From positions 26,183 through 90,182 of the forward strand of contig JAAZHX010000057.1 of assembly GCA_012510495.1 (NCBI GenBank): a DNA stretch of 64,000 nucleotides. Direction: 5' to 3'. Every line of letters starts with the position of its first letter. Within the stretch, counting starts at the first letter, position 1. Positions 14,911-48,117 of this stretch are shown piece after piece. This stretch comes from Smithella sp. (GTDB lineage: Bacteria; Desulfobacterota; Syntrophia; Syntrophales; Smithellaceae). The notes below the pieces were generated by a model that ran no database searches, was not told the DNA's origin, and saw only the letters and a program-made list of their open reading frames with translations. Position numbers and translations under genes: made by a program.

Positions 14911-14916
14911 CTTTCG

Positions 14917-16431: not shown

Positions 16432-16502
16432 GATCTGCAGATGTCTCCTTTAGCGGCAAAAGTGCCCGGAAAGCTAACATAAATCAGCGAAGTCGTCCAG
16501 CA

Positions 16503-17975: not shown

Positions 17976-17993
17976 ATAGACTTTTCCTGAAAA

Positions 17994-19267: not shown

Positions 19268-19269
19268 GA

Positions 19270-20004: not shown

Positions 20005-20031
20005 GATGGTATTTTTCTCCTTTGGCGAATT

Positions 20032-27406: not shown

Positions 27407-27929
27407 AAAATTTTCCTCCGGCGCCGGTTTTCACATTTTTGTTTTTTGTGTCGGGAATCATAAGAGAAGCAGGAGGAGTTGTCAAAACAAATTTCCGCCG
27501 GGTGAAGCTTCGGAATATGCATTTGACTCTTGAGCTGGTCCAATTTAATTTTAAAAACAAAAAACAAGCGCGGGCCAAATGCGGGGTTGAGGGGAATTCT
27601 GAACAAAGTCACCTGCGATTCGTTTCCCATGACTGCGACGGGTGAAAAAACGTCGGACGCCGCGCGCCCCTCCCTTCATAACCGCAGTGAAAGGAGCAAC
27701 CGGAAAGAGTTTTTCCGGAGGCGAGATTCGGGCTTGCGCTCCGGCGCTATCTGTGGAAAAAGGGGGACTGCCAGCGGCGGTCGGTCTGGAACAGCCGGCC
27801 GCGCCGTTAAATTTTGTGACGGGCAAAAAGCGGCGGCGAACCGGCGGCATACGGTTTTATCCGGCGTATTTTTTGGCGGGACAACTGCCTGCCCGGTGTC
27901 CAGCCGCTGTGAAAAATAAAGGGGAATAT

Positions 27930-29159
27930 ATGAAGTTTCTGCTGATTTATCCGAAATGGGAAAAGCTGGACCGTCAGACGTCGTTCATCCTCCCGCCGCA
28001 CGGGCCGGCGGTGATGGCGGCGACTCTGCCTCCCGATGTCGATGTGGCGTTTATCGACGAAAATATCGAGCCGGTGGATCTCGGCGCCGATGCCGATTTC
28101 GTGGGCGTCTCCATGATGCTTACCGCCCAGGTGAAGCGCGGCTGGGAGATCGCGGACGCGTTTCGCGAGCGCGGGATTCCCGTCCTTTGCGGCGGTATCG
28201 CCGTGATGCTGCACGCCGAAGAATGCGAAAAGCACGCCGACGCGGTGTTTTTGGGCGAGGCCGAAGGCCGGATGGAGCAGGTTTTCGCCGATTTCAAAGC
28301 GGGTAAGCTGCGGAAAGTTTACAACTACATGCAGAACTTTCCGCCGATTGAAAGCGTGGGAACGGCCCGGCGCGGCATTCTCAAGCGCGAGATGTACAAC
28401 TATCGCGGCGTCCAGATGGTCGATCTGGTGCACGCCTCCCGCGGCTGCCGCTTCAACTGCTATCCCTGTGCCGTGCGCTTTCTGGGCGGCAGGAGCTTCC
28501 GTCCCCGGCCCTTCGAGAGGGTGGTCGAGGAAATGGCCTCCATCGACAACAACCGCCTGTTTATCGTGGACAATTCGCTGGCGCAGAACCGCGACTGGGA
28601 AATCGGTCTGTTTCGGGAAATGATTCCGCTCAAAAAGAAGTGGTGCTGCCATCCGATTGAAGAAGACGATGAGGTTCTGGATCTCGCGGCGCAGGCCGGA
28701 GCGTGGTTTGTCTATCAGACGATTTTCGACTCGTCCAACTATATCCGCGACCGGGTCAGGCGCTACCACGACCACGGCATTGCCGTGGAAGGCAGCATCC
28801 TCCTGGGGCTGGACTATCACACGGAAGACTATATCAAACGGTGGATGGACTTCCTTCTGGAAATCGAGCTGGACATGGCGGAGTTCACGATTCTCACGCC
28901 TTTTGTCCACACGCGCACGTTCGACGATCTGCACGGCGAAGGACGGATTCTCTCCTATGACTGGAATGACTACACCTGCGGCAAGGTCGTTTTTCAGCCC
29001 AAAATGATGACGCCGGAAAAGCTCCAGGAAATGTACTACTACTGCTGGGACCGCTTCTATGAGGAAGAGCCGGCCAATTACAAAATGTTCAAGTTGCTCA
29101 AGCAGGTCATGGAAAAGGAAAAAGCGGACGGCACGTACAAGCCGCGGGTTCGTGTTTGA
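27930..29159 (+). CDS. B12-binding-domain radical SAM protein
   Basis: Rossmann-like N-terminus (FVGVSMMLTAQVKRGWEIADAF), CxxxCxxC as CRFNCYPC; start at MKFLLIYPKWEK 27930. Confidence 0.88.
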   Translation: MKFLLIYPKWEKLDRQTSFILPPHGPAVMAATLPPDVDVAFIDENIEPVDLGADADFVGVSMMLTAQVKRGWEIADAFRERGIPVLCGGIAVMLHAEECEKHADAVFLGEAEGRMEQVFADFKAGKLRKVYNYMQNFPPIESVGTARRGILKREMYNYRGVQMVDLVHASRGCRFNCYPCAVRFLGGRSFRPRPFERVVEEMASIDNNRLFIVDNSLAQNRDWEIGLFREMIPLKKKWCCHPIEEDDEVLDLAAQAGAWFVYQTIFDSSNYIRDRVRRYHDHGIAVEGSILLGLDYHTEDYIKRWMDFLLEIELDMAEFTILTPFVHTRTFDDLHGEGRILSYDWNDYTCGKVVFQPKMMTPEKLQEMYYYCWDRFYEEEPANYKMFKLLKQVMEKEKADGTYKPRVRV

Positions 29160-29310
29160 ACAGGATGTCCCGGCGGGAGGAGATGGAAAAAATCGGCGAA
29201 AAAGACACCCTCGTCATTGACATCGGCCTGCCCGTCAGGATCGGCCGTTCGCGTGCGGTTCTGAAGCGGCCGGCGGCCATCCGTTATACGGATTTTTTTC
29301 GGAGGAAAAC

Positions 29311-29727
29311 ATGAGCACAGACAGGAAAAGCTTTGAGGCCGGAATCCGTGTGCCGTTTTTTGACCTGGACCCCATGCAGATCGTGTGGCACGGCAATTAC
29401 CTCAACTACTTTGAGATCGCCCGCGCGGGGTTTTTCGAACATTACGGCGTCGATCTCTATTCGTATTACGAACGGGAAAAAATCATTTTCCCGATCATCC
29501 GGACGGCGACGAAGCACATTTTTCCGCTCAAACACCGCGATGAGATTATTGTCAAGGCGACGCTGGCGGACGCCAACATCAAGCTGGTGATGGATTTTGA
29601 AATCCGCAGGGCTTCCGACGGAAGCGTCTGCGCGCGAGGACGTACGGAACAGGTGGCAGTGAAGGCGCCGGAGATGGAAACGCTGTTCAGCATTCCGCAG
29701 GACATCCGGAATTTATTGGGATTTTAA
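29311..29727 (+). CDS. Acyl-CoA thioesterase, 4HBT/YbgC family
   Basis: VPFFDLDPMQIVWHGNYLNYFEIARAGFFEHYGVD. Confidence 0.88.
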   Translation: MSTDRKSFEAGIRVPFFDLDPMQIVWHGNYLNYFEIARAGFFEHYGVDLYSYYEREKIIFPIIRTATKHIFPLKHRDEIIVKATLADANIKLVMDFEIRRASDGSVCARGRTEQVAVKAPEMETLFSIPQDIRNLLGF

Positions 29728-31443
29728 ATGGAAAATCGGTTCAAGCAATCTTTTGTGGCGGGTGTGGAGCGGGTGGCGGCCTGGGCCGACCTCCTCGATG
29801 ACATCAACGTTTATCCCGTGGCGGACGGCGATACCGGGCGGAATCTTTCCGTCAGTCTTTCACCGCTTCGCCAGGCCAACGGCGAAAAAGACAAAATCGT
29901 TCGTCAACTGCTTCTGGCGGCGCGCGGCAATTCCGGCAATATTGCATCGCAGTTTTTCTCGGTCTTTTACGCCGCCGATTCCCCGGTGCGCCTGAAGGAA
30001 ACGGTGCGGACGGCGAACGAAAAAGCCTGGAAGGCCGTCAGCGACCCGCGGCCGGGAACCATGCTGTCCGTTTTTGATGCACTGGAGAAGACTCTTGCGG
30101 AGCAGAAGTCCTTTCCGGACAAAGAAAGCGCGGACCGGATTTTGTCGGACCTGGAAAATGCCGTTCGCGAAACGAGGGAAACGCTGCCCAAATTGAAGCA
30201 GGCCGGCGTCGTGGACGCGGGCGCCCTGGGTATGTACATTTTTTTTGAAGGCTTTTTCCGAACGCTGGCCGGACTGGACAACGCGTATTGTCCGGTAACG
30301 GAAATCTTTCCGGGCTTGCTTTCCATTTCGCCCGCGTTTCACGAAACTCTTGAATCGGGTTATTGCGTGGACTTCGTGGTGAAGGCCGATGCGCCGTCGG
30401 AAGATCTGGCGCAAATTGCCGCCGGACAGGAAAGCGCCGTCATTCTGCGCGACGGCGATCTGTATAAAATTCACCTGCACACGGATGACCGGGAAAAGAT
30501 CCGCTCACAGGCGGGCGCTCTGGGCTCGGTGATGATCTGGGAAGACGACAATCTCGCAGCGCAGATCCGCGACTTCATGAATGCCCCGGCGGATGCTGCC
30601 GTGCACATCATGACGGACGCCGCCGGTTCGCTTACCCGCGACGACGCAAAGAAGCGCGGCTTCACCCTTTTAAACAGCTATCTCAACGTGGGCGACAAAT
30701 CGCTGCCCGAGACGCATTTTTCCCCCGCTGAACTGTACAGGGCCATGAGCGCGGGCGTAAAGGTTTCCACGTCTCAGGCCTCTGTGTTCGAAAGGCATCA
30801 GTGTTACGCGAGCGCGCTCGCCCGGTTCGAAAAAGTTCTCTACCTGTGCGTCGGTTCCGTTTTTACCGGCAATTACAGCGCGGCGCTGGAGTGGAAAAAG
30901 GAGCACGACCCGGAAAACCGCATGACGGTGATCGATACGGGCGCGGCCTCCGGCAGGCTGGGTGTGATGGTGCTCGCGGTGCAAAGCTTTCTTGCGCGGA
31001 CAAAAGACATGGATGCCGCAATCGCTTTTGCCCGCAAAGCGGTGGAACGCTGCGAAGAGTATGTGTTTCTCGAAAAGCTCCAGTACCTGGCCGCGGGCGG
31101 CAGGCTTTCCAAGACCAGCGCCTTTTTCGGCGATATGCTGAAAATGAAGCCAGTGATTTCCCCGCAGCCGGAAGGCGCCAAAAAGATGGGCGTTGTCCGC
31201 AGCCGTGCCGATCAGATTCAAATGGCGCTCGACAAACTGGCCGCGGTTCTTGCTCCGGATGCTTTGGCGCTCATCATGCTGGAGTATTCGGACAATATCG
31301 GGCAGGTTTCGGAATTCCGAAAACAGGTTCAAAGGCTGTATCCGGGAGCGGAGATACTTCTCCAGCCCCTGTCGCTCACGTCCGGCGCGCACATGGGGCC
31401 GGGGACGTGGGGCGTCGCGTTTTTGAGAATAGAAGAAAAATGA
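29728..31443 (+). CDS. DAK2 (DhaL/FakA-like)-DegV (FakB-like) fusion protein
   Basis: N-term NVYPVADGDTGRNLSVSL...AARGNSGNIASQFF; C-term VHIMTDAAGSLTRDDAKKRGFTLLNSYL...KVSTSQAS...LCVGSVFTGNYSAA; starts 1 nt after thioesterase stop. Confidence 0.87.
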   Translation: MENRFKQSFVAGVERVAAWADLLDDINVYPVADGDTGRNLSVSLSPLRQANGEKDKIVRQLLLAARGNSGNIASQFFSVFYAADSPVRLKETVRTANEKAWKAVSDPRPGTMLSVFDALEKTLAEQKSFPDKESADRILSDLENAVRETRETLPKLKQAGVVDAGALGMYIFFEGFFRTLAGLDNAYCPVTEIFPGLLSISPAFHETLESGYCVDFVVKADAPSEDLAQIAAGQESAVILRDGDLYKIHLHTDDREKIRSQAGALGSVMIWEDDNLAAQIRDFMNAPADAAVHIMTDAAGSLTRDDAKKRGFTLLNSYLNVGDKSLPETHFSPAELYRAMSAGVKVSTSQASVFERHQCYASALARFEKVLYLCVGSVFTGNYSAALEWKKEHDPENRMTVIDTGAASGRLGVMVLAVQSFLARTKDMDAAIAFARKAVERCEEYVFLEKLQYLAAGGRLSKTSAFFGDMLKMKPVISPQPEGAKKMGVVRSRADQIQMALDKLAAVLAPDALALIMLEYSDNIGQVSEFRKQVQRLYPGAEILLQPLSLTSGAHMGPGTWGVAFLRIEEK

Positions 31444-31592
31444 GTGGATAGTGGCTGGGAAAAACAGGCGATGAGCTATAGGCAGTGGCGTTAAGAAAAG
31501 CTCGTAACTCATGGCAGAACTTGTCATGGTGACCGTTCGACAGACTTTCGGTGACATTGTCGTCGAAACAGGACGAAGGATAGTGGAAAGTG

Positions 31593-32366
31593 ATGAGTCA
31601 TAAAAAACGGGCAGTGAACGAACAGAAGGATGCGAAAAACAGGCGGCGGGCGGGAAGGAGTCTCGGCCGGTTTGCCTTTGTCATTCCCGCTTACAATCAC
31701 GGCGCGACGGTTGCGCAGGTGGCCGGCAGAGCCAGGGACATGGGGTTCCCCGTTTTTGTGGTGGATGACGGATCCACCGACGACACGTCCCGGCGGCTGA
31801 CGGAAGTTCAGGGCATCGAAGTGCTTCGCCATGAAAAAAACGAAGGAAAGGGGGAGGCGATCCTGACCGGTTTCATGGCTGCGTCGCACAAGGCCGATTA
31901 CGCGATCACGATCGACGCGGACGGGCAGCATGACCCCGAAGACGCGATCCATCTGATAGATGCCATTCCTCTCAAAAAAAGACCGATTGTGGTGGGGGCG
32001 CGCAAAGGGATGGATGCGGTGCAGGGAGCTCACATTCCCTGGACCAGCCGTTTCGGTCGGAAGTTTTCCAATTTCTGGGTCCGGATGTCCGGGGGGCCGA
32101 AAATTTCGGACACCCAGAGCGGCATGCGGATTTATCCGCTTCCGGAATCACTGAGCCTTTCCGTGCTGGCGAGGCGGTTTCAGTTTGAGGTGGAAATTCT
32201 GGTGCAGGCCAAAAGAATCGGCATTCCGATCATCGAAGCGCCGATCCGGGTCGTTTACCAGCCGGACGGGTCGCGCATTTCTCATTTTCGTCCTTTCGTT
32301 GATTTTTTGCGTAATGCCAAAACCTTTACCCGTCTGATGTTTGTCCGTGTTTTCGGACGTCATTGA
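31593..32366 (+). CDS. Glycosyltransferase family 2
   Basis: FAFVIPAYNHGATVAQVA, VDDGSTDDT, ITIDADGQHDPEDA, SGMRIYP. Confidence 0.9.
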   Translation: MSHKKRAVNEQKDAKNRRRAGRSLGRFAFVIPAYNHGATVAQVAGRARDMGFPVFVVDDGSTDDTSRRLTEVQGIEVLRHEKNEGKGEAILTGFMAASHKADYAITIDADGQHDPEDAIHLIDAIPLKKRPIVVGARKGMDAVQGAHIPWTSRFGRKFSNFWVRMSGGPKISDTQSGMRIYPLPESLSLSVLARRFQFEVEILVQAKRIGIPIIEAPIRVVYQPDGSRISHFRPFVDFLRNAKTFTRLMFVRVFGRH

Positions 32367-32476: not shown

Positions 32477-35400
32477 ATGCCTCCTCGCCGATACCCCATA
32501 AGATGGTCGATTGTGTTGGTCACCGCCGTGATCGTGGGGATTTTGTTTTACTGGGAAACCAGCCATCTAAAAATTGAAACCGACATTCTCGAATCCATGC
32601 CGCACCATGAGCCGGCGCTGGCTTCCGCCCGGCGGGTCATCGCTCATCTGCCTGTTTCCGACCGGATTTTTATCGATCTGGCACAGTCCTCCGCCGACCG
32701 GGGCAAACTGGCGGAGGCGGCCCGGCTCGTTGAAGATCGGTTAAGCCGAAGCGGTTTGTTTGAACGCATCGGCATTGCCGGAGAGGCGGAGATTTTTCCG
32801 GAATGGATGGCGCACGTCCGGGAGCATCTGCCGTCGCTGCTCTCCGCGGAAGACCTCGAGCGGAAGATCGCGCCGCTGATCGCGCCGGAAAAAATCCGGG
32901 AGACGATGGCGGAAAACCGGCGCAGCCTTGAGGAACTTCAGGGCATCGGCCGCGCGGAGATGATCGCCCGAGACCCGCTGGGTTTTTCCGCGGTGATCCT
33001 GGAGAGAATGTCCGCGCTGCTGCCGGTTGCCGCCGCCCAATTTTATTCCGGACAACTTCTTTCTTCCGACGGACGCCACGCGCTGATCATTGCGCGCCTG
33101 GCCGGCTCCGGGACAGACACGGCCCGGGCCGCGCAAATCGCCGGACTGCTGGAGGACTGCACACGGATGCTGCAGGCGCACGGGGATCCGGGCGACCGCT
33201 ACACGCTGACGCCGGTGGGGACGTACCGGGCGGCGTTGGACAACGAAACCGTCGCCAAACGAGACACGCGGCTGGCGATCCTCCTGACCATACTGGGCAT
33301 ATCACTGCTGCTCGTTGCGGCCTTTCCCCGCCCGCTGATCGGCTTGCTGGCGCTCCTGCCTTCCAGCGTCGGGGCCATTGCCGCTCTGTTTGTCTGCTCT
33401 TTCTGTTTTGAATCCATGTCCATGCTGGCGGTAGGGTTTGGCGGCGCGATTCTGGCCTTTACGGTTGACCTGGGGATCACGTACCTTTTGTTTCTGGACC
33501 AGCCGCGGGCCACGTCCGGGCGCGAGGTGGCGCGGGAAGTGTGGTCGGCTGAATTCACGGCCGCCCTGACCACGATCGGCGCCTTTTTGCTGCTGCTGGT
33601 GAGTGATTTTCAAATCCTGGCCCAAATCGGCGTGTTTGCTGCGCTGGGCATTTCCTTTGCGTTTCTCTTTGTTCACCTCGTGTTTCCCGCCATCTTTCCT
33701 GCCCTGCCGCCGGCCCGGCGCGAAGCCAACCGCCGGCTGGCGCTGGCCGTCCGGAAACTGGCCGCGCCGTCTTCATGGAAACTCGTTGCCGCGCTGGTCT
33801 TCGGCCTGACGATGCTGTTTTTTGCCAAGCCTGTCTTCGACGTGGACCTGCAGGCCATGAATTCCGTCAGTCCCGAAACGCTTGCCGCCGAAAAAAAATT
33901 GCAGGAGGTCTGGGGAAATTTCAGCGGCAGGAGTTATATCCTTCTGGAAGCGCCGGATTTGGAACAGTTGCAAAAGAAAAACGACGATCTGACGGAACGG
34001 CTTGCCGAAGACGTGCAAAGCGGCAAACTGGCCGCACCATTTCTGCCGACCGTTTTGTTTCCTTCGCCGGAATCGGCCGCCCGGCATTTTACCGCCTGGC
34101 AGTCCTTCTGGACGCCTGAGCGCGCCGCCGCGCTGCGGACGAACCTGAACGAGGCGGCCAGGGCAAACGGTTTCGCGCCGGACGCGTTCGATTCTTTCTG
34201 GCCGGTCTTTCAAACGGAGAAGCCGGCCGTCCTGACGATTCCGCCGACGCACCTGGAAATGCTGGGTGTTTCCCGGACGTCCGGAGGCTATGCACAACTC
34301 AGCCTGGTGACGGCCGGAAAAAATTACAACGCGGAGGAATTCTTTTCGCGGCTGGCCCGGGGCGGGCAGGCCGACCTTTTCGACGCGGACTTGTTCAACC
34401 GACGCATAGGGGAATTTCTCAAAAATATTTTTGTCGAAATCGCCCTGATCATCAGCCTCGGTCTGATCGCGGTGATTTTCCTGTTTTATCTGGATTGGCG
34501 CCTTTCGACGGCCGTTCTGGCGCCCGTGGCTTTCGCCCTCATTGCCACGCTGGGGACGCTCAAGCTCATCGGCCGTCCTCTGGACATTCCCGGCATTATG
34601 CTGTGGGTCGTCATTCTGGGCATGGGGGTGGATTACGCCATTTACTACACCTGTATGTATCAGCGTCATCCGGATGAAGCCTCTCCCGCGATGAACACCG
34701 TCAAGCTCTCCATTTTTCTGTCGGCCGCGACCACATTCATCGGCTTCAGCGTTCTGACGCTGGCGAAGCACCCGCTCCTGCGCAGCATCGGTCTGGTTTC
34801 TCTGCTGGGCATCGGGTATTCTCTGCTGGGCGTGTATTTCATTTTGCCGACTCTGATGCGAAAAATATTTTCGCCGTTTGACTTTCCCGCAGGCGCGGTT
34901 CAACCGGCGTCCCGGGAGCATGTTCGCCGCGTCCTTTTGCGTTACCGGCTGCTTCCCGGTTATCCGAGGGTTTTTGCCCGGTTCAAGATGAAATTGGACC
35001 CGATGTTTTCCGAACTGGACCGATATGTGCAAAATCCCCGCCGCATTCTCGATATCGGCTGCGGCTACGGTGTTCCCGCGACATGGCTGCTGGAGATACA
35101 TCCGGAAGCGAAGGTTTACGGTCTGGAGCCCGATGAAGAGAGGGTGCTCATTGCCCGCCGTGTGATCGGCGCGCGAGGCGGGGTGCAGGTCGGGCGGGCT
35201 CCGGATCTGCCGGACACCGAAGGTCCGGTGGACCACGTTCTGATGCTGGACATGCTGCATCTGATTGACAATCGGGAATTGCAGCTTGTTTTTCAGCGTA
35301 TTTACGATAGGCTCGGGCATGATGGGGCGCTGGTGATCCGGGCGACGGTTCCCTCGGTCGGAAAAGTTCCCTGGAAGAGATGGATCGAGGCGGCCCGTTT

Positions 35401-35545
35401 GAAGTGGATGGGAATGCCGGAGCGCTTCCGCGGGGAAAGAGAAATCACCGGATTCATGGAGGCGGCGGGACTTGCCGTTAAGGTGCACGCCTCGCCGATT
35501 CCCGGTGTGGAAGAAAAGTGGTTTGTAGGGAAAAAAGGCTATTAG
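32477..35545 (+). CDS. MMPL/RND-family exporter with C-terminal SAM-dependent methyltransferase domain
   Basis: Two TM bundles with VGFGGAILAFTVDLGITYLLF and VILGMGVDYAIYYTCMY; C-term RILDIGCGYGVPATWLLEIHPEAKVYGLEPDEERVLIAR (motif I) all in one ORF. Confidence 0.9.
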   Translation: MPPRRYPIRWSIVLVTAVIVGILFYWETSHLKIETDILESMPHHEPALASARRVIAHLPVSDRIFIDLAQSSADRGKLAEAARLVEDRLSRSGLFERIGIAGEAEIFPEWMAHVREHLPSLLSAEDLERKIAPLIAPEKIRETMAENRRSLEELQGIGRAEMIARDPLGFSAVILERMSALLPVAAAQFYSGQLLSSDGRHALIIARLAGSGTDTARAAQIAGLLEDCTRMLQAHGDPGDRYTLTPVGTYRAALDNETVAKRDTRLAILLTILGISLLLVAAFPRPLIGLLALLPSSVGAIAALFVCSFCFESMSMLAVGFGGAILAFTVDLGITYLLFLDQPRATSGREVAREVWSAEFTAALTTIGAFLLLLVSDFQILAQIGVFAALGISFAFLFVHLVFPAIFPALPPARREANRRLALAVRKLAAPSSWKLVAALVFGLTMLFFAKPVFDVDLQAMNSVSPETLAAEKKLQEVWGNFSGRSYILLEAPDLEQLQKKNDDLTERLAEDVQSGKLAAPFLPTVLFPSPESAARHFTAWQSFWTPERAAALRTNLNEAARANGFAPDAFDSFWPVFQTEKPAVLTIPPTHLEMLGVSRTSGGYAQLSLVTAGKNYNAEEFFSRLARGGQADLFDADLFNRRIGEFLKNIFVEIALIISLGLIAVIFLFYLDWRLSTAVLAPVAFALIATLGTLKLIGRPLDIPGIMLWVVILGMGVDYAIYYTCMYQRHPDEASPAMNTVKLSIFLSAATTFIGFSVLTLAKHPLLRSIGLVSLLGIGYSLLGVYFILPTLMRKIFSPFDFPAGAVQPASREHVRRVLLRYRLLPGYPRVFARFKMKLDPMFSELDRYVQNPRRILDIGCGYGVPATWLLEIHPEAKVYGLEPDEERVLIARRVIGARGGVQVGRAPDLPDTEGPVDHVLMLDMLHLIDNRELQLVFQRIYDRLGHDGALVIRATVPSVGKVPWKRWIEAARLKWMGMPERFRGEREITGFMEAAGLAVKVHASPIPGVEEKWFVGKKGY

Positions 35546-35639: not shown

Positions 35640-37355
35640 ATGTACGAGCAGAAACCCTGGCTGAAGTTTTACGGCAGTGTTCCGCATTCCATCGATTATC
35701 CCCGCGTCACCATGTATGAAGCGCTTTTGCAGACGGCGCGTGAAAAACCCGATGCCGTCGCCTATGATTTCATGGGCTACACATCGACTTACAACAGGTT
35801 CATTTCCGAAATCAATCAGTGCGCCGACGCGCTGGCTGCCCAGGGGCTGAAGCAGGGTGAGCGTATTACCATTTCCATGCCCACCTCCCCGCAGGGCATC
35901 ATCGCTTTTTATGCCGCCAACAAACTGGGCGCGGTGGCCAGCATGATCCATCCTCTTTCCACGGCCAAGGAAATTGAATTTTATCTCAACGTCGCCAAAA
36001 GCCGTTTTGCGCTTACGCTGGACGCCTTTTATGCCAAGTTCAAGGAAGTGCAGGGCACGACGCCGCTTCAGACGCTGATTCTGGCGCGCATTCCGGATTA
36101 TCTGAGCTTTTTCAAACGGGTCGGCTTCAACCTGACCAAAGGCCGGCAGATTCCAAAAGTTCCCGCGGATCCCATGGTGAAATGGTGGGCGGATCTGATG
36201 AAAGGCAGCCACCCCAGCGCCCAGCCGGCCGAAATGGATACGGATGACATGGCCGTGATCCTCTACAGCGGCGGAACAACCGGCGTCCCCAAGGGCATCA
36301 TGCTGTCCAATATGAATTTCATTTCTGAGGGGAAAATGGTGTCGGAATGGGGGAAGATGGACGACGCCACCTCCGTGCTGGCCATTTTGCCGATCTTTCA
36401 CGGCTTCGGTCTGGGGGTCTGCATCAACGCCTGCTTCATGGGCGGCGGCAAAAGCATTCTGGTACCGATCTTTACGCCGGAGACGGTCGCCGATCTGATT
36501 CGTTCGCGAAAGCCGTCATTTGTCATCGGCGTGCCGACTCTCTTTGACGCGCTTTCGCGCAATCCCAAAATGCATAAAGCGGATTTGAGCTGCCTGCGGG
36601 CGACGTTCTCCGGCGCGGACATGCTGCCCCGTCCGATCAAGGAGCGCTTTGAAGAAATGGTCAAGAAGCAGGGCGGTAACGTTCAGCTTCTGGAAGGCTA
36701 CGGACTTACCGAGGCCGTCACCGCCATCATGGCCACGCCCCTCGGCAACTACCGCGAAGGCAGCATTGGCGTGCCTTTTCCGGACATGCTGGCCAAGGTC
36801 GTGAAGCTCGACACGGTCGAGGAGGCACCGCTGGGCGAAGAAGGCGAGATCTGCGTGGCCGGTCCCGCCGTGATGATGGGCTATCTCGACCAGCCCGAAG
36901 AAACCGCCGCCGCGCTTCGGAAACACGCGGACGGACGTATCTGGCTGCACACGGGAGACATCGGCACGATGGACGCGGACGGGTTTTTCTATTTCAAGCT
37001 TCGCCAGAAACGAATGATCAAATCCTCAGGCATGAACGTCTATCCCGCGCAGGTGGAAGAGCTGCTCTACAAGCACGAAAAGGTGCGCGACGCCTGCGTC
37101 ATCGGCGTGCCCGACGAAGCCCAGGTGCAGGCGGTGAAGGCGTTTATTGTGTTGAAAAATCCCGCTGACGCCGGCCCGGAAATGGAAAAGGAACTCATCA
37201 ACTACAGCCGCGAGCATTTGATTAAATGGAGCTGTCCGCGCTCCATCGAATTCCGCGACGATCTGCCCAAAACCCTGGTCGGTAAAATCGCCTTCAACAC
37301 GCTGGAGAAAGAGGAAATCGAGAAGCTGAAAAAAGAAGGAAAATTCGCGGGGTAG
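35640..37355 (+). CDS. AMP-binding acyl-CoA/acyl-ACP ligase
   Basis: ILYSGGTTGVPKGIMLSN, EGYGLTEAV, WLHTGDIGTMDADGFFYF, PKTLVGKIAFNTL. Confidence 0.92.
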   Translation: MYEQKPWLKFYGSVPHSIDYPRVTMYEALLQTAREKPDAVAYDFMGYTSTYNRFISEINQCADALAAQGLKQGERITISMPTSPQGIIAFYAANKLGAVASMIHPLSTAKEIEFYLNVAKSRFALTLDAFYAKFKEVQGTTPLQTLILARIPDYLSFFKRVGFNLTKGRQIPKVPADPMVKWWADLMKGSHPSAQPAEMDTDDMAVILYSGGTTGVPKGIMLSNMNFISEGKMVSEWGKMDDATSVLAILPIFHGFGLGVCINACFMGGGKSILVPIFTPETVADLIRSRKPSFVIGVPTLFDALSRNPKMHKADLSCLRATFSGADMLPRPIKERFEEMVKKQGGNVQLLEGYGLTEAVTAIMATPLGNYREGSIGVPFPDMLAKVVKLDTVEEAPLGEEGEICVAGPAVMMGYLDQPEETAAALRKHADGRIWLHTGDIGTMDADGFFYFKLRQKRMIKSSGMNVYPAQVEELLYKHEKVRDACVIGVPDEAQVQAVKAFIVLKNPADAGPEMEKELINYSREHLIKWSCPRSIEFRDDLPKTLVGKIAFNTLEKEEIEKLKKEGKFAG

Positions 37356-37390
37356 AGGCAATCAACGTTTGATGGCATGTTGTTTATCGC

Positions 37391-37414
37391 AGGGGCGAAA
37401 AATGTTTCGCCCCT
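37391..37414. repeat. Palindromic repeat AGGGGCGAAA-AATG-TTTCGCCCCT
   Basis: 10-bp perfect arms; sits between ligase stop and acyltransferase start. Confidence 0.65.
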
Positions 37415-37416
37415 AC

Positions 37417-38310
37417 ATGAGTAATCTGGTGAAGAAATTTTTTTATAAAATCGCGATTTTTCTGTCGCACCGGTTGGGCCTGTGGTTTTTCCGGGTGTTT
37501 TCCTGGTGCATCGCGACGGGGTATTTCTTTTTGTTTCCGGGCCGCGTCCGCGAAAGCCACCGCTTTTACCGGGCCCTTTTACCGGAACGAAGCTTCGGGC
37601 ATCACCTGTACTGCGTCTGGAAGCAGTTTCACAACTTCACGGGCGTCTATGTCCACCGTTTCATTCCCTGGGCGGTCGAACAGGCCATCTTCACCCGTGA
37701 GGGCTGGCAGCATTTGGATGAGGCCGTGGCTTCCAAAACCGGCGCGGTTGTGGTGATGTCGCACATCGGCAACTGGGAGCTTGCGGCCCAGCGGCTCAAT
37801 CAAAAGGGGCTGCCGGTTATGCTGTATCTGGGCGCCAAATTCAAGGAGCAGGTGGAAAAATATCAGAAGGAAAAGCTGGCCGAAACCGGCATCCGGATCG
37901 TGACGACGGACGAGAAGGAAAAATCGCCCTTCGCTTTGCTGGAAGGCATCGGCTTCCTGCGGCAGGGTGGCATCGTTTCCATGGCGGGTGACCGCATCTG
38001 GGGAGAACAAACCTGGGTGGAAGTCGATTTTCTGGGACACAGGGTCCGTCTGCCGGACACGCCTCATTTGTTCGCGCTGATAAGCGGTGCGCCGCTGATA
38101 ACGTTCTTTGTTTATGAAAAATCGCCGGGTCATTACCATGTGCAGGTTTCGCAAGGCCGGAAGGTGGCAGCGGGCACCCGCGCCGAGCGGAAGAAAGCGG
38201 TGCAGGAATCCGCTCAGGCCTATGCGGACGATCTGGCGCGCTTTGCCGCGGCGCATCCCTTCGAGTGGCACCATTTCGAGCCGTTTCTCGGTGAAAAAAT
38301 TGTCCGGTGA
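37417..38310 (+). CDS. Lysophospholipid acyltransferase, LpxL/HtrB-like
   Basis: VVVMSHIGNWELAAQRL (HX4D/E type), GGIVSMAGDRIWGEQ, VDFLGHRVRLPDTPHLFA; start placed after the palindromic repeat. Confidence 0.87.
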   Translation: MSNLVKKFFYKIAIFLSHRLGLWFFRVFSWCIATGYFFLFPGRVRESHRFYRALLPERSFGHHLYCVWKQFHNFTGVYVHRFIPWAVEQAIFTREGWQHLDEAVASKTGAVVVMSHIGNWELAAQRLNQKGLPVMLYLGAKFKEQVEKYQKEKLAETGIRIVTTDEKEKSPFALLEGIGFLRQGGIVSMAGDRIWGEQTWVEVDFLGHRVRLPDTPHLFALISGAPLITFFVYEKSPGHYHVQVSQGRKVAAGTRAERKKAVQESAQAYADDLARFAAAHPFEWHHFEPFLGEKIVR

Positions 38311-38397
38311 AAGATGGGCGCGGCCGGGCAGAATTTGCTTTGCGCCGGGGTCAAATTAGGATAAAAAGATATTGAAATCTTTAACGGAGCTTTGGAA

Positions 38398-38796
38398 ATG
38401 AACGTTCGGGAAGTGCCGCAGGACATCACCTATTACGAGGGGAAAAAGCGCGCCTGCTATGCGCTCAATGACGAGGGGAAATATGTCATTGTGCCCAGTT
38501 CCGGCTGGGAGGTGGAAGCGGTGGTCAACGGACTCGCGGTTGAGGAAATGGCGATAGCGCTGGAAGAAACCAGACAGGCGGTGCTGACCGGCGTGAAAAG
38601 CCCGCTTTGCTATCACATGGAGCGCCGCCAGATGACGCCGGAGATTCTGGGAAAAACCGCGCGGATCGCGGTTTTTCGGGTGAAAAGGCATTTCCGGCCT
38701 GACGTGTTTGCCGGGCTGGGGCCGTCGGTCCTGGACCGCTACGCCAAGGCGCTGGCCGTTTCCCGCGAAGAGCTCAAAACCGTTCCGCAAACCTGA
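38398..38796 (+). CDS. Hypothetical protein (biosynthetic cluster associated)
   Basis: 133-aa ORF, co-oriented with short spacing; C-terminus GLGPSVLDRYAKALAVSREEL; no family recognised. Confidence 0.7.
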   Translation: MNVREVPQDITYYEGKKRACYALNDEGKYVIVPSSGWEVEAVVNGLAVEEMAIALEETRQAVLTGVKSPLCYHMERRQMTPEILGKTARIAVFRVKRHFRPDVFAGLGPSVLDRYAKALAVSREELKTVPQT

Positions 38797-38815
38797 TTCT
38801 GGAGGGGCCGATTAC

Positions 38816-39850
38816 ATGATTACGGAAGTTACCGCAGCCGGGAAACCCTTTGTCCATGTTCATTCAGCGCACTGCGAAAGCGGCGTCACCGCGTCGCTGT
38901 TCCGCGACAGGGGCGTGGAAATTTCCGAGCCGATGATTTTCGGCATCGGCAGCGGCATCTTTTTCGGCCATCTGCCGTTTATGAAAATGAGCGGCGTGAC
39001 GATCAGCACGTTTCGCTCCCAGCCGGGCGCCGTCTTCCGCAAATCCGCCAAACGTCTGGGCGGTAAATTCAAAACCGCGCGATTCCGGAATCCCAAAAAG
39101 GGCATGGATGAGCTCCGGCGCGTTCTCGGGACCGGCCAGATCGTCGGGCTGACCACCAATATTTACTGGCTTTCCTACTTTCCCAACCGGTTCCGCTTTC
39201 AGTTCAACGGCCATAACATTGTGGCTCTGCATGAGCTTGAAAACGGTTTCCGCGTGAGCGATCCGATGCTGGAGCAGCCGGTGGATTGTTTGGCGGAAGA
39301 CCTGGAAAGGGCGCGGTTTGCGCGCGGTCCGCTGGAGCCGCGCGGGTTCATGTACTATCCCCAGTCCGTCAACCCCGGTCCCGACCTGCGCGCGGCATGC
39401 CTTGCAGGCATGAAAGATACCTGCAACATGATGCTGAAAATTCCCGTGCCCATTTTCGGCATCCGGGGGATGCGCAGCCTGGCCAAAAAAATTGTCCGCA
39501 GCCCCGAGAAGCTGGGCTTTATGGGGGCCTGCCGCGAGCTGTCCGGCGTCGTCCGGATGCAGGAAGAGGTGGGCACGGGCGGTGCCGGTTTCCGCTATAT
39601 GTATGCGGCGTTTCTTCAGGAAGCCGCCGAACTGTTTGCCTCGGACGCGCTTACCCGCCTGTCTTGCGAAATGACGGCCATCGGCGACATCTGGCGGGAA
39701 TTTGCCGTTGTTTCCGCGCGCATCATCAAGCAGCGCGGACAGGCCGAAGAGACCTTTGAAAAGGCGGGGGGACTGATGCTGGTCTGCGCCGGGCGCGAAG
39801 AACAGCTTTTTAAGGATCTGGCTCAGGTGGTGAAAAAGCTCAAGGCATGA
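38816..39850 (+). CDS. BtrH N-terminal domain-containing protein
   Basis: HCESGVTASLFRDRGVEISEPMIFGIGSGIFFGH resembles BtrH_N; SD GGAGGGG upstream of ATG 38816. Confidence 0.78.
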   Translation: MITEVTAAGKPFVHVHSAHCESGVTASLFRDRGVEISEPMIFGIGSGIFFGHLPFMKMSGVTISTFRSQPGAVFRKSAKRLGGKFKTARFRNPKKGMDELRRVLGTGQIVGLTTNIYWLSYFPNRFRFQFNGHNIVALHELENGFRVSDPMLEQPVDCLAEDLERARFARGPLEPRGFMYYPQSVNPGPDLRAACLAGMKDTCNMMLKIPVPIFGIRGMRSLAKKIVRSPEKLGFMGACRELSGVVRMQEEVGTGGAGFRYMYAAFLQEAAELFASDALTRLSCEMTAIGDIWREFAVVSARIIKQRGQAEETFEKAGGLMLVCAGREEQLFKDLAQVVKKLKA

Positions 39851-40566
39851 ACGCACTCGATATTTCTTCCGTGACTTTCCGCTACGACGGAGCGTCCGTT
39901 CCCGCGCTTCGGGATTTTTCTCTGGCGGTTGCGAATGGACAGATGCACGCGCTTCTGGGGCCCAACGGCGCGGGGAAGTCAACGCTGATGCGGATTGTTA
40001 CCGGTCAGCTCCGGGGCCATTCCGGAGAGGTGTCTGTTTACGGCCTCCGCATGCCGGACCCGAAAGCGCTTTCGTTCATCGGGTGCGCGCCGCAGCCGAT
40101 CTCGCTTTACCCCTCTCTGACCGCATGGGAGAATTTGCGCTTTTTTGGTGTGATGGCCGGGCTGTCGAAGGGCCAAATCGCACAGCGCTCACAATGGGCG
40201 CTCGAAAAAACGGGTCTCGCGGAATATTCTGAGACGGCGGTGGCGACTTTTTCCGGCGGCATGCAGAGACGCCTCAATCTGGCGGTGGCGCTCCTGCATT
40301 CTCCGAAGCTTCTGCTGCTCGATGAACCATCGGCGGGCGTCGATCCGCAGAGCCGGAATCATATGTACGATTTGCTGGCGGAGTTAAGCGTGGGGGGCGT
40401 CACGATGTTGCTTTGCACGCACATCATGGAAGAGGCCCAGCGCCTGTGCTCCGGCCTGACGCTTCTGGATCGCGGCGAGCGGATTTATAATGGCCGGATG
40501 TCCGATATTGATAACCTGGAGAAGTTTTTCCTGGAGAAGACAGGCAGGGGGCTGCGTGATTTTTAA
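39847..40566 (+). CDS. ABC transporter ATP-binding protein
   Basis: LLGPNGAGKSTLMRIV, FSGGMQRRLNLAVALLHSPKLLLLDEPSAGVDPQSR. Confidence 0.94.
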   Translation: MNALDISSVTFRYDGASVPALRDFSLAVANGQMHALLGPNGAGKSTLMRIVTGQLRGHSGEVSVYGLRMPDPKALSFIGCAPQPISLYPSLTAWENLRFFGVMAGLSKGQIAQRSQWALEKTGLAEYSETAVATFSGGMQRRLNLAVALLHSPKLLLLDEPSAGVDPQSRNHMYDLLAELSVGGVTMLLCTHIMEEAQRLCSGLTLLDRGERIYNGRMSDIDNLEKFFLEKTGRGLRDF

Positions 40567-41677
40567 ACAGCTGATAGAACTGATTCGCAAGGAAATGCTG
40601 GTCCTGATTCGTGACCGGCAGACCATCCTGCTTCTTTTTTTGATGCCGGTGGCCCTGATTTTCTTCATGTCGCTGGCGCTGGAAGGCGTGTGGGAGGATA
40701 AACTGACCGGACGGAAGATTCCAATGGTGGTGGATAACCAGAGCCGATCTCCCCAGGCCGGACTCCTCGCGGGAAAAATCAAGGCCCATCCGCTGATCGT
40801 GCCGATGGAAAAACCGGCCGGCGCCGACAACGACAGACTCTTTGTGGACGGCACAGCGCAGGCCGTCGTGATGATCCCCCCGGGTTTCGAAGAGGGAGAC
40901 CGGCCGGTGGAAATTTTCTTTGATCCCGTGATGGACGCGAGCTACCGGATCGCCGCCCGCTCGCTCGTCACATCCATTGTCGTGGAAGTGGTCATGGGCG
41001 TCGACAATCTGGAGGCGATGGCGGCCGGTCTGGTCGTCGAGCGAACCGGTCCCAACCGGGAGCTGCCGACCCCCTTGCAGCAGACGGTTCCGGCCTATGC
41101 CATCTTCGCGATGTTCTTTATCGCTGTCCCCATGTCGGTCGGTTTTTTGAGGGAGAAGAAAGACGGGACGCTCCAGCGTCTCTTCACGTATCCGGTGTCC
41201 GCTAATCTGGTGACGCTGGGCAAAATCACTCCCTACTTCCTGATCAACGTTGTTCAGTTTGTTTTGATGATGCTGGTGGGAGTTTTTGTCATGTCCCATT
41301 TCATTACCCCGGCGTTTTTCGCAGGGCAGCGCCCCTGGCACATGCTGCCGGTGACGCTGGTGGCGGCGGCCGCTACGACGGGGTTCGGTGTACTGGTGGC
41401 GGCGACGGCCAAAACGCCCGAGCAGTCTTCCACGCTGGCTGCGATGGTGGCGATTTTGATGGGCGTCTTCGGCGGCATCATGGTGCCGCACGCGGTGATG
41501 CCGCCGGTGATGAAAAAGCTGGCCATGATTTCGCCGATGTTCTGGGCGCATCAGGCCTATCTGGATATTTTTCTGCGGGATGCCGCGTTTGGGACCATCG
41601 CGCCCAAATTAATCATATTGACACTGTTTGCGGGAATTTGCTTTTATATTGCGGGGAGGAAGGTTCGATGGATTTAG
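40556..41677 (+). CDS. ABC-2 type transporter permease
   Basis: Six-TM ABC-2 topology, FREEKKDGTLQRLFTYPVS-like segment (FLREKKDGTLQRLFTYPVS); GTG start overlaps ATPase gene. Confidence 0.88.
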   Translation: MIFKQLIELIRKEMLVLIRDRQTILLLFLMPVALIFFMSLALEGVWEDKLTGRKIPMVVDNQSRSPQAGLLAGKIKAHPLIVPMEKPAGADNDRLFVDGTAQAVVMIPPGFEEGDRPVEIFFDPVMDASYRIAARSLVTSIVVEVVMGVDNLEAMAAGLVVERTGPNRELPTPLQQTVPAYAIFAMFFIAVPMSVGFLREKKDGTLQRLFTYPVSANLVTLGKITPYFLINVVQFVLMMLVGVFVMSHFITPAFFAGQRPWHMLPVTLVAAAATTGFGVLVAATAKTPEQSSTLAAMVAILMGVFGGIMVPHAVMPPVMKKLAMISPMFWAHQAYLDIFLRDAAFGTIAPKLIILTLFAGICFYIAGRKVRWI

Positions 41678-41979
41678 AACAGGCGTACAGGGATCTGAAC
41701 GTGACGTCGCGGGAGGATCTCCTTTTCAAGATCAAGGAACTGGTTATCCGGGCCTGCGAAATCCGGGATGTCCGGGCCGAGGATGTGCCCACCGACGTGC
41801 CGTTTATCGGCGGACCCGGGCCGCTCAAGCTCGACTCACTCGACGCGATGGAAATCGCGATGGAACTGCGCTATACGTTCGGCGTCGAGTTGAAAAACGC
41901 GAGCACGGCCGCGAAGGCGATGCAGAGCTTCGATACGCTGGCTGATTTTGTGATTGCCGCGCCGAAGGTGAAAAAGTGA
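41668..41979 (+). CDS. Acyl carrier protein (divergent)
   Basis: GPLKLDSLDAMEIAMELRYTFGVEL; overlaps both neighbours. Confidence 0.87.
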   Translation: MDLEQAYRDLNVTSREDLLFKIKELVIRACEIRDVRAEDVPTDVPFIGGPGPLKLDSLDAMEIAMELRYTFGVELKNASTAAKAMQSFDTLADFVIAAPKVKK

Positions 41980-43145
41980 AACAGGGGAACATTCATATTC
42001 GCGGGTGGGGCGCCGTCACCACCCTGGGGTGGGGCGCGTCGGAAGGCGCCCGCCGCCTGATCGCGGGCGATATACGCCCGGCGGGCGTTTGTCGGTCGTC
42101 CCATCTGGTCAACCGGGAGTTCAAGGCGTTTGAAGTCCTCTATGACGGCAATCCCCTGGAAAAATCACTCAAGATGATGGACGCATCGATTACCGAAGCC
42201 TTTGAGCGCGGAGGCCTTTCCGCGTCCGAAATTGTTGAATCCGCCCTGATTGTCGGAACCACCGGCGGCATCGTCATCCGCAACGAGTACGAATTTACCG
42301 AATCCGTCCGCCTCAACCCCGGCAAAGAATCGCCCCCGATTGTCTGCCGCAACCGGGGGCCGGGCGAGGCGGCTGACGTGATCGTTCAGAAATATGGCAT
42401 TCGCGGCATGACGATGACCTTCAGCATGGCCTGCGTGTCGAGTTCGCACGCGCTGGTTGTAGCGGCGGATCTGCTTGCGCAAAAAAGAATCAAACGTGCG
42501 ATCGTGGTTGGCTTCGAGCCGCTTCTGAATCTGACCTTGCAGGGTTTTGCCGGCCTGTTGCTTTATGATCCGGACAGGTGCCGCCCCTTCTGCAACCGGC
42601 GCATGGGCATGCAAATCGGCGAGGCGGCATCCTGCGTGATTCTGGAAGAAGGCGCAGACGACGGGGCGGGAAAAAGCCGGTTCTGGTATGTCGGCGGCCA
42701 TCTGTATAACGACAACAGCAGCCTGACCTCCGCGGGCACGGACGGCGAGGTGATTAAGGGCGTTGTTACCAGGGCGCTTTTGAAAGCCGACACGGACCCC
42801 GGGGAAATTGTCGCAGTCAAGGCCCACGGCACCGGCACGAGAGACAATGACCTTTCCGAGGGCCGAGGGCTGGCGAGGGTTTTTGGGGAGCGTCTGCCGC
42901 CGGTGATTTCGCTCAAAAGCGCTATCGGCCACACGCTGGGCGCGGCCGGGACGGTGGAGACGGCTCTGTGGCTTTCCTGTCTGGAGGAAGGAGTCATTCC
43001 GAAAAGCTTCGGCTTTGCCGAGACGGACCCCGAAATCGGTTTTGCGCCGTCACAGGAAAACCTTCCGGCGGCCGACGGGGCGTATTTGTTTACCTTCTTC
43101 GGCTTCGGCGGAACCTGCACGGGGTATGTCATTGTTAAAAAGTAG
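41976..43145 (+). CDS. Beta-ketoacyl synthase with intact catalytic triad
   Basis: FSMACVSSSHAL (Cys), KAHGTGTRDND (His), LKSAIGHTLGAAGTVETAL (Lys/His). Confidence 0.92.
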   Translation: MKQGNIHIRGWGAVTTLGWGASEGARRLIAGDIRPAGVCRSSHLVNREFKAFEVLYDGNPLEKSLKMMDASITEAFERGGLSASEIVESALIVGTTGGIVIRNEYEFTESVRLNPGKESPPIVCRNRGPGEAADVIVQKYGIRGMTMTFSMACVSSSHALVVAADLLAQKRIKRAIVVGFEPLLNLTLQGFAGLLLYDPDRCRPFCNRRMGMQIGEAASCVILEEGADDGAGKSRFWYVGGHLYNDNSSLTSAGTDGEVIKGVVTRALLKADTDPGEIVAVKAHGTGTRDNDLSEGRGLARVFGERLPPVISLKSAIGHTLGAAGTVETALWLSCLEEGVIPKSFGFAETDPEIGFAPSQENLPAADGAYLFTFFGFGGTCTGYVIVKK

Positions 43146-43738: not shown

Positions 43739-44737
43739 ATGACTACAAAATTAAAAAATTCTTCACTGCCTGTCCTGGCGGCCGGATATCTGGGACCCGC
43801 ACTGATACCCAACGCGGACGGCAGCTGGGAAGAGCAGAGACTGCCCGCCGATCCCGACGATCTGGTGCGGAAAATGATGGGCCAGCCGATGCGGCGCGCG
43901 GGACGGTTCATCAAGCTCGTCTGCTGCGGCGCGCTCGCCTGCATGTCCCGCGTTTCCGAAGAAGCGCTCTTGGGCCGGAAAATCGGTATTTTCCTGGCCA
44001 CCGGTCTGGGCAACATCGACGAGATCCTGCCGTTCATCACGCAGGTCTTCAAGTATGACGGCGGATTTCCCAGCCCCAACCAGTTCGCCAATTCCGTCAG
44101 CAACTCCGCCGCGTTCTTCCTGGCGAAGTTTTGCGGCATCAGAGGCGTTGTCCTCACCATCTCGCAGGAGGAGCTGTCTTTTGAATCCGCCCTGTGGCTG
44201 GCGCAGAGCTACCTGGAGTCCGGCGAGATCGACCTGGCGCTAGTCGGAGGCTGCGACGTGTTCACGCCGTCCGTGGCAGACTACCGGGAGCGGCTGAATC
44301 TGGCGCCTGGCCGGTACCGGAGCGCTCCGATGGGCGAAGCCAGCGGCTGGCTTTTACTGGGCGGCGACGGAGAAGGAAAAATCGGAGACATTTTGTCTGT
44401 TGAAATTTCGAGCGGATCAACGGACGCGGAAAGCCCGTCTTCAGACGATTTCCTGGGGCAATGTGAAAAATTGGCCGCCGAAAAAGAGGGGTTTCCCAAA
44501 GACGATAAAATCAGTAAAGTGTTCCTGCCCGGTTTTAACCTGGCGAATATCGACGAAGCCTCGTGGAGAAACAGCGGCTGGGACGTGGATGATTATCTGA
44601 TCCAGTGCGGCATTTCCTCCACTGCTTCCGCCTGCGGGCTGGCGCGGGCGCTGCTTTCCCGTCAAGACGCTTTTCTCGTTCACGGCAATTTCTTTTCGTC
44701 CGGAAGGCAGGCCCTGATCGCGGCGTCAACAGAATAG
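43739..44737 (+). CDS. Beta-ketoacyl synthase-like protein lacking catalytic residues (chain-length-factor-like)
   Basis: KS fold landmarks (FLATGLGNIDEI, FPSPNQFANSVSNSAAFFLAKFCGIRG, LALVGGCDVFTP) but ISQEELSFESAL and QCGISSTASACG replace Cys and Lys/His motifs. Confidence 0.82.
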   Translation: MTTKLKNSSLPVLAAGYLGPALIPNADGSWEEQRLPADPDDLVRKMMGQPMRRAGRFIKLVCCGALACMSRVSEEALLGRKIGIFLATGLGNIDEILPFITQVFKYDGGFPSPNQFANSVSNSAAFFLAKFCGIRGVVLTISQEELSFESALWLAQSYLESGEIDLALVGGCDVFTPSVADYRERLNLAPGRYRSAPMGEASGWLLLGGDGEGKIGDILSVEISSGSTDAESPSSDDFLGQCEKLAAEKEGFPKDDKISKVFLPGFNLANIDEASWRNSGWDVDDYLIQCGISSTASACGLARALLSRQDAFLVHGNFFSSGRQALIAASTE

Positions 44738-44747
44738 CAAATAAATC

Positions 44748-46193
44748 ATGGCGTTACGACAACAAAAAAAACGCATTGCCCTTGTTCATCCCCGAGGGTC
44801 CAACTGGTTTCCCGGCAGGCGCGACATCACCGACATCGCCAACCGGATGGTGCCGCAGGGGATGCTCTCCATCGCGGCTTGGCTGACGCGCGACGGGTAT
44901 GAGGTTTTCGTCTATGACTGTCTCGGTCCCGGCGCGCCGGTGGGTATCGACCGGCAGGCCCGGGATATTCTCGCCTTCGATCCGCAGATTGTCGGATTTT
45001 CCGCCACCACGTCATCCTTTCCCGATGCGGCCGGGATCGCGCAAAAGATCAAAACCGCCCGGCCGGATGCCGTCACTGTTTGCGGCGGTGTCCATGCTTC
45101 CGCGCTGAGAGAAAAACTCCTGGCAGCCTTTCCTCCCGTTGATTATCTGGCGGCGGGAGAGGGAGAGCAAACAATGGGCGAACTGGCGGCAGGCGTCGAT
45201 CCGGCAGCGATCGCGGGCCTGATCCGCCGGGAAAAAGGCGTTGCCGTCGCCAACGAGCCGAGAAGGCATATCGCCAACCTCGATGACCTGCCGTTTCCGG
45301 CCTACGAAAAACTGCGCGGATTTCCCAAAGACTACCATCTGCCGCTTTTCAGCTACAAACAAACTCCCGGCGCGACGATGATCACCTCGCGAGGCTGCAT
45401 ATATCAATGTTCCTACTGCGACCGCTCCGTTTTCCAGAAGGGTTTCCGCTACAACTCGGCAGCCTACATCTACGAGCACATGAAATATCTGCGGGATCAA
45501 TTCGGCGCGCGCCACGTCAACATTTACGACGATCTTTTTACCGCCAACCGCAGGCGCATCGTGGAGTTGTGCGAAAAACTCGCGCGCTTTCCGCTGGGCA
45601 TGAACTTCAACTGCGCCGTGCGCGTGGGCTACACGGACGATGATCTGCTCAGGATGCTCAAGGCGGCGGGCTGCCTGATGGTCTCGCTGGGAATCGAATC
45701 GGCCGATCCGGACATGCTTACGCGCCACAAATCCGGCGTGTCGCTCGATGACGTGCGCGACACCGTGCGGCGCATTCAGGCGGCGAAACTTCGCGCTAAA
45801 GGCCTGTTCATGATGGGATTGCCGGGAGAGACCGAAGCGTCGATCCGGCGGACCTCTGATTTCATTATATCGCTGGGGTTCGACGACATGAATATGGCCA
45901 AGTTTACGCCATTTCCCGGCGCGCCGCTGTGGTCAACGATTCGCGAGGAGGGGACTTTCCAGGAAGACTGGCGGCTGATGAACTGCCTGAATTTTGTTTT
46001 TGTCCCCAGAGGGATCGCGTCGAAGGAAAGGCTCGACCGGCTTTACAACGAGCATGTCAAACGATTTTATTCCGATCCGGCCTGGCGCAAGCGGTTCCGG
46101 GGCCGCATCTGGGAGCACCGCAACAGCCTGCTGTATCTGCTGAGGCATCTTCCCTCCTTCTGGTCCGCCAAAAACCAGTTCGAACCGGAGTAG
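44748..46193 (+). CDS. B12-binding-domain radical SAM protein (BchE/hopanoid-type family)
   Basis: VGFSATTSSFPDAAGIAQ, YLAAGEGEQTMGEL, TSRGCIYQCSYCDRSVFQKGFRYNS (CxxxCxxC). Confidence 0.92.
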   Translation: MALRQQKKRIALVHPRGSNWFPGRRDITDIANRMVPQGMLSIAAWLTRDGYEVFVYDCLGPGAPVGIDRQARDILAFDPQIVGFSATTSSFPDAAGIAQKIKTARPDAVTVCGGVHASALREKLLAAFPPVDYLAAGEGEQTMGELAAGVDPAAIAGLIRREKGVAVANEPRRHIANLDDLPFPAYEKLRGFPKDYHLPLFSYKQTPGATMITSRGCIYQCSYCDRSVFQKGFRYNSAAYIYEHMKYLRDQFGARHVNIYDDLFTANRRRIVELCEKLARFPLGMNFNCAVRVGYTDDDLLRMLKAAGCLMVSLGIESADPDMLTRHKSGVSLDDVRDTVRRIQAAKLRAKGLFMMGLPGETEASIRRTSDFIISLGFDDMNMAKFTPFPGAPLWSTIREEGTFQEDWRLMNCLNFVFVPRGIASKERLDRLYNEHVKRFYSDPAWRKRFRGRIWEHRNSLLYLLRHLPSFWSAKNQFEPE

Positions 46194-47990: not shown

Positions 47991-48117
47991 TTTTTCGCGA
48001 TTCAACACCCCGGTTTGGATCCCGAAGAAAGTTCCATCAACACTTACAGCGAGAACAAACAAAACGGATGAAAGGGAAAATAATCAATGAAGCGAATTCA
48101 AAAAGGTTTTTTTTAAG

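Follow-up and report, generated by a model that had tools for sequence, protein, structure and literature searches.

The window (the whole analysed stretch of 64,000 nucleotides, from a Smithella sp. contig) encodes, in one ORF on the + strand (32477–35545), a protein of 1022 aa in which an MMPL/RND exporter is joined to a C-terminal class I SAM-dependent methyltransferase (MT). We propose that this protein is probably the exporter of an aryl polyene (APE)/flexirubin-type outer-membrane lipid with a tailoring MT permanently attached to it, and that the MT would act on the polyene lipid from the cytosolic side; the probability of this reading is put at about 0.55. The single polypeptide is conserved among relatives, keeps the motifs of its domains intact, is under selection in both halves and lies among APE-type genes.

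The frame opens with ATG and has no internal stop, and the gene is present as a single copy in its own genome. Pfam matches were obtained for MMPL in two stretches (E 3e-13; 49.7 bits against a gathering cut-off of 20.5) and for Methyltransf_25 at residues 857–950 (E 4e-12, above the gathering cut-off), while Methyltransf_25/23/11/12 together cover residues about 847–1001. The exporter part presents the features of an MMPL/RND (HAE-3-like) protein: 12 TM segments, a large loop following each of TM1 and TM7 in the hydropathy profile, an Asp in TM4 (D331) and an Asp-Tyr pair in TM10 (D719-Y720), these residues being at least 95% conserved in 30 aligned full-length proteins. In the MT part, alignments revealed an N-terminal motif Y-x-R-x-F-x3-K-x3-DP-x-F, followed by SAM motif I (D859-x-G861-x-G863-x-G865) and an acidic residue at 884, after strand 2; together with the Pfam matches, motif I and the acidic residue identify a class I SAM methyltransferase. 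Residues D859, G861, G863, G865, D925 and H928 are conserved in at least 95% of the same 30 proteins.

The usual RND topology has both termini in the cytosol. Given the 12 TM segments, the large loops after TM1 and TM7 and this standard topology, the C-terminal MT should lie on the cytosolic face of the membrane, behind TM12, as the initial annotation had supposed. AlphaFold models, which were poor because only six sequences were used, reached a pLDDT of 57.8 for the MT domain and 36.6 for the whole protein; at this low confidence they neither support nor refute the topology, and a contact between the domains is not demonstrable from them.

The uninterrupted ORF described in the initial annotation, running from an MMPL exporter into a C-terminal class I methyltransferase, is confirmed by the frame, the Pfam matches and the fused homologues. 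An artefact (a missed stop, a frameshift or a chimeric contig) would find some ground in the draft genome, which is fragmented into 332 contigs and has 6.56% contamination. However, no stop or frameshift separates the domains, and the same junction is kept in dozens of independent genomes, many of them with full-length, stop-free fused homologues, which refutes this explanation and leaves it a negligible chance. Full-length fused homologues were found at 81, 75, 66, 60, 45 and down to about 37–38% identity (overall about 30 proteins, at roughly 37–85%), and the named matches belong to metagenome-assembled genomes of Deltaproteobacteria/Syntrophaceae. In six-frame searches, the full fusion was present in 19 of 297 sampled genomes of the same phylum, the window included and one of them with a single TGA, and a match was found in 20 of the 23 other members of the family of the window, the three genomes without a match being 67–83% complete. 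The two-part version is stable and, within one section of a single phylum, common. The distance from the end of TM12 to motif I of the MT varies only from 66 to 72 residues in the 30 aligned full-length proteins. Comparisons with close relatives gave dN/dS values of 0.14–0.25 for the MMPL half and 0.10–0.18 for the MT half, both with an excess of changes at third codon positions, and purifying selection acts on the two halves alike. An ORF of 571 aa on the opposite strand (33773–35488) is taken as spurious, because selection follows the + frame. The homologue of genome G039 (L050:6886-10020) carries one in-frame TGA inside its exporter part.

Table 1. Features of the fused gene and of the surrounding cluster in the window (residues are those of the fusion protein)
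Feature	Position	Strand	Basis
MMPL/RND exporter–class I SAM methyltransferase fusion, 1022 aa	32477..35545	+	Open frame; Pfam MMPL and Methyltransf_25; about 30 full-length fused homologues
Exporter part, residues 1–797, 12 TM	32477..34867	+	Hydropathy; 30-homologue alignment; PDB relative HpnN by sequence
TM segments 1–6	residues, about: 8–26, 266–284, 288–306, 316–340, 363–381, 384–402
TM segments 7–12	residues, about: 436–454, 651–669, 680–698, 704–722, 742–762, 771–789
Linker, residues 798–825 (28 aa)	34868..34951	+	Near-constant length in 30 homologues
Methyltransferase part, residues 826–1022	34952..35542	+	Pfam; alignments
Second half of cluster	14119..20454	-	Profile matches; ketosynthase and acyltransferase collinear with upstream genes of L038
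Acyltransferase	14119..14910	-
Ketosynthase	14917..16158	-
CrtD-like oxidoreductase	16503..17975	-
LolA	18644..19333	-	NCBIfam LolA2, 109.4, below cut-off 125
FlxB-like ketoreductase	19270..20004	-	NCBIfam, 292.7, below cut-off 340
FabZ-like dehydratase	20032..20454	-
B12-binding/radical SAM protein	27642..29159	+	Profile matches; synteny
Aromatic amino acid lyase remnant	29183..29314	+	Both ends align to the intact L045 gene
Acyl thioesterase (4HBT_2)	29311..29727	+	Pfam; synteny
DAK2-DegV (FakA-like + FakB-like) fusion protein	29728..31443	+	Pfam PF02734, PF02645; synteny
Family 2 glycosyltransferase	31590..32366	+	Pfam PF00535; adjacent in most homologous loci
Long-chain acyl-CoA/ACP ligase	35640..37355	+	Pfam AMP-binding
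LpxL-like lysophospholipid acyltransferase, separate gene	37369..38310	+	Pfam PF03279; close downstream in most homologous loci
DarG-family protein	38392..38796	+	NCBIfam NF053536, 127.8 bits, cut-off 70
DarH, BtrH-related acyltransferase	38708..39850	+	NCBIfam NF053550, 394 bits, cut-off 300
ABC exporter (ATPase 39847–40566, permease 40490–41677)	39847..41677	+	Pfam
Acyl carrier protein	41638..41979	+	NCBIfam PRK09184, 3e-9, below cut-off; synteny; 78–85% identity in close relatives
Beta-ketoacyl-ACP synthase	41976..43145	+	Pfam PF00109/PF02801
Divergent ketosynthase-like protein	43739..44737	+	Pfam PF00109, 2e-5; conserved in relatives
Second B12-binding/radical SAM protein	44748..46193	+	Pfam; synteny

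The APE-type setting claimed in the initial annotation is borne out by the neighbouring genes, whose profile matches mark a flexirubin/APE-type cluster, partly rearranged (Table 1). The gene set of this type is present (ketosynthase (KS), ACP, ketoreductase (KR), dehydratase, acyl ligase, acyltransferase, LolA and MMPL), with the dehydratase and ACP scores below the curated cut-offs, and the gene order on the + strand is kept in close relatives. The DarG-family protein does not reach the narrower flexirubin DarG equivalog (109.3 against 170), and the DarA/DarB resorcinol-forming pair was not seen among the scanned ORFs. A ladderane-type cluster, prompted by a weak TIGR04072 match, was rejected, as the neighbours fit the APE/flexirubin type better; the ladderane paper PMC2649909 gave no match to the MMPL-MT architecture.

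Some neighbouring genes present particular features. The DAK2-DegV protein (571 aa) is kept in such clusters across several families of the phylum at 48–87% identity, and its domains suggest an acyl-phosphate step in the assembly of the polyene lipid. The DarG-DarH pair, single in the window, is duplicated in tandem at two related loci (L038:16198-19142 and L067:10762-13706). A small GIY-YIG nuclease ORF (43290–43577) lies between two ketosynthase genes and has no counterpart seen in the syntenic relatives. The region of 46–50 kb has a lower GC content, and includes a truncated C-terminal part of FeoB (47504–48121) and a transposase-type helix-turn-helix ORF (49159–49647).

The rearrangement is evident from the comparison with locus L038, in which two ketosynthase genes join the halves of the cluster. 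The window lacks both genes, and its halves are in opposite orientation; the ketosynthase/acyltransferase end, which is collinear with the start of L038, is about 11 kb away. When one of the missing ketosynthases was compared with the own genome, the best matches were short or had 34% identity; two relatives gave matches of 70–74%. Between the radical SAM and thioesterase genes, about 1.4 kb of an aromatic amino acid lyase gene, intact in L045, L046 and L038, has been deleted, leaving a remnant of 132 bp in which the two ends are joined in frame as a short ORF. No aromatic amino acid lyase was found in the own draft genome by a search that was positive in three of four relatives. This deletion may be genuine or may stem from misassembly. 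As the lyase and the two joining ketosynthases are lost, the cluster of the window may make something other than a standard aryl polyene.

In its type, the fused MT differs from the methyltransferase of the known E. coli system, in which the RND transporter and the methyltransferase are two proteins, ApeM and ApeB (PMC8253772). The APE cluster of E. coli CFT073 encodes one MMPL protein and one methyltransferase, as the cluster of the window does, and ApeM, a protein of one domain, is related to the exporter part. However, ApeB is a Methyltransf_2 protein with a dimerisation domain, both of which are absent from the fusion; BLAST showed no significant match between ApeB and the fused MT (E 0.95), and the HMM of the fused-MT family misses ApeB, so that an ApeB-type O-methyltransferase identity was discarded. 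Matches were found instead in the C-terminal MT of two Bacteroidota proteins. One, WP_264793640.1 of Aureispira anguillae, is named by NCBI “trifunctional MMPL family transporter/lysophospholipid acyltransferase/class I SAM-dependent methyltransferase”; the other, WP_338399298.1 of Persicobacter, has the same architecture but is annotated only as an acyltransferase. BLAST in a small database gave 1e-44 to 1e-48 for the MMPL part and 1e-10 to 1e-11 for the MT part, and the family HMM of the fused MT detected the two proteins at 4e-22 and 5e-21. Like the fusion, the trifunctional proteins unite an N-terminal MMPL exporter and a C-terminal MT of the same family in one polypeptide and adjoin APE/flexirubin-type genes. 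Unlike it, they carry an acyltransferase domain of about 270 aa between the MMPL and MT parts, where the window protein has a linker of 28 aa and the acyltransferase is a separate gene, and their identity to the window protein is only about 23–28%. By these profile and BLAST matches, the fused MT is assigned to a non-ApeB methyltransferase family that Bacteroidota also fuse to an MMPL exporter with an acyltransferase between them. Persicobacter encodes an ApeB-like enzyme in addition to the fused MT, and therefore the two need not share one job there.

The family HMM also recovered stand-alone MT genes in Caballeronia. These lie less than 1 kb downstream of the MMPL gene, after separate MMPL and deacetylase genes in APE/xanthomonadin-type clusters, but the three genes are unfused; by gene content alone this arrangement resembles the exporter, deacetylase and methyltransferase genes arcP, arcN and arcM of Azoarcus sp. 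BH72 (PMC3949708). A helix motif that contains a lysine and precedes SAM motif I is common to the window, Bacteroidota and Caballeronia enzymes. The family thus occurs in three arrangements: as a free MT (Caballeronia and genome G047), as MMPL-MT (the window and its relatives), and as MMPL-LPLAT-MT, LPLAT being the lysophospholipid acyltransferase (Bacteroidota and G191). Genome G191 belongs to the phylum of the window, and its trifunctional gene (L090:7715-10399, - strand) adjoins APE-type KS, KR, C45-peptidase-like and oxidoreductase genes. The exporter tree grouped the two-part proteins in one clade (support 100/100). This clade includes the MMPL protein of G047, which has no MT domain and is placed beside the fused protein of G009; the free MT of G047 is located in another part of the contig. 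Because this MMPL protein sits within the fused clade, the simplest reading is that its MT domain was lost later. A separate lineage is formed by the free MTs of G047 and G009, which adjoin a GT2 gene. The AU test did not separate a single from a repeated origin of the two-part and three-part fusions (p 0.10).

The architecture is therefore not new in kind, as the three-part version had already been named by NCBI, and the window protein is its two-part variant. The claim of the initial annotation that the exporter and the methyltransferase are normally separate holds for Caballeronia and for ApeM/ApeB of E. coli, but for some phyla only, given the trifunctional proteins named by NCBI and the near-universal two-part fusion in the family of the window. 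No paper describing an MMPL-MT or MMPL-LPLAT-MT fusion was found in the open-access papers searched, which is weak evidence.

For the proposed function, the 12-TM part would use the passage of protons via D331 and D719/Y720 to extract a lipid-linked polyene from the inner membrane and move it towards a periplasmic LolA-like carrier. For the E. coli RND protein ApeM, a role in moving the APE lipid through the inner membrane has been proposed (PMC8253772), and in phylum members that are only distantly related the fusion is surrounded by APE-type genes. Using SAM, the MT would methylate the same lipid (at the aryl head, the polyene acid or the sugar/lipid anchor) before or during loading. Methylation of the aryl head is possible, as the cluster of the window has no ApeB-like gene; the lipid or sugar anchor is also a possible site, because genes for a glycosyltransferase and an acyltransferase, and in many relatives one for a deacetylase, lie near the fusion. 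The MT and the exporter are tied to one pathway by the occurrence of the same MT family as a free gene near the Caballeronia MMPL and as a fused domain in Bacteroidota and G191. The coupling of methylation to export suggested in the initial annotation remains an inference, and a covalent linkage is not strictly required, since G047 combines an MT-less MMPL protein with a free MT. In a stricter version, methylation would be the loading step of export, the MT accepting as substrate only lipid that its own exporter holds, and passing the product straight into the RND path; we regard this version as doubtful.

The main competing explanation is that the fusion only secures co-expression and membrane tethering, the MT methylating an intermediate, such as the ACP-bound or free polyene acid, with no coupling to export. 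Gene fusions within one pathway often do no more than fix stoichiometry, the MT is a free gene in the Caballeronia clusters and in G047, and other combinations of the MMPL, LPLAT and MT of this pathway also occur in fused form. However, the linker has kept a nearly fixed length through deep divergence, which fits a positional role without proving one, and we consider simple tethering possible, though unlikely. It is very improbable that the MT part is mainly structural or sensing, gating the exporter by binding SAM without methyl transfer. Regulatory SAM-binding domains exist in other proteins and the SAM-binding motif I is strictly conserved here, but D925 and H928 are conserved too, with no sign of lost catalysis, and free-standing members of the MT family occur in the same type of cluster.

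The exporter might also move another lipid, hopanoid-like or a phospholipid, which the MT would modify, the APE-like neighbours being incidental. The nearest solved relatives of the exporter part by sequence are indeed the HpnN hopanoid transporters (PDB 5khn, 5khs and 6wu0), whose MMPL/HAE-type RND architecture is recognisable by sequence, and the neighbouring B12-radical SAM proteins weakly resemble hopanoid and ladderane enzymes. HpnN has no MT, however, and membership of its family was rejected, the scores of the window protein being far below the cut-offs (75.6 against 751.85 for the equivalog TIGR03480 and 27.3 against 1100 for NF052374). Moreover, in distant genomes the fusion is surrounded by APE-type genes for KS, ACP, KR, LolA or a deacetylase, and another lipid seems improbable as the substrate.

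The export of a polyene lipid by a protein with its own tailoring MT thus remains our preferred reading. If methylation were the loading step, only the finished polyene lipid would leave the inner membrane, and the exporter would contain its own enzyme for quality control. The fusion offers a compact protein for testing the order of methylation and export. Two different methyltransferase families, the ApeB type and the fused-MT type, serve such clusters, and the second occurs, according to the phylum, as a free protein, joined to the exporter, or joined to both the exporter and an acyltransferase, which ties three steps together at the inner membrane.
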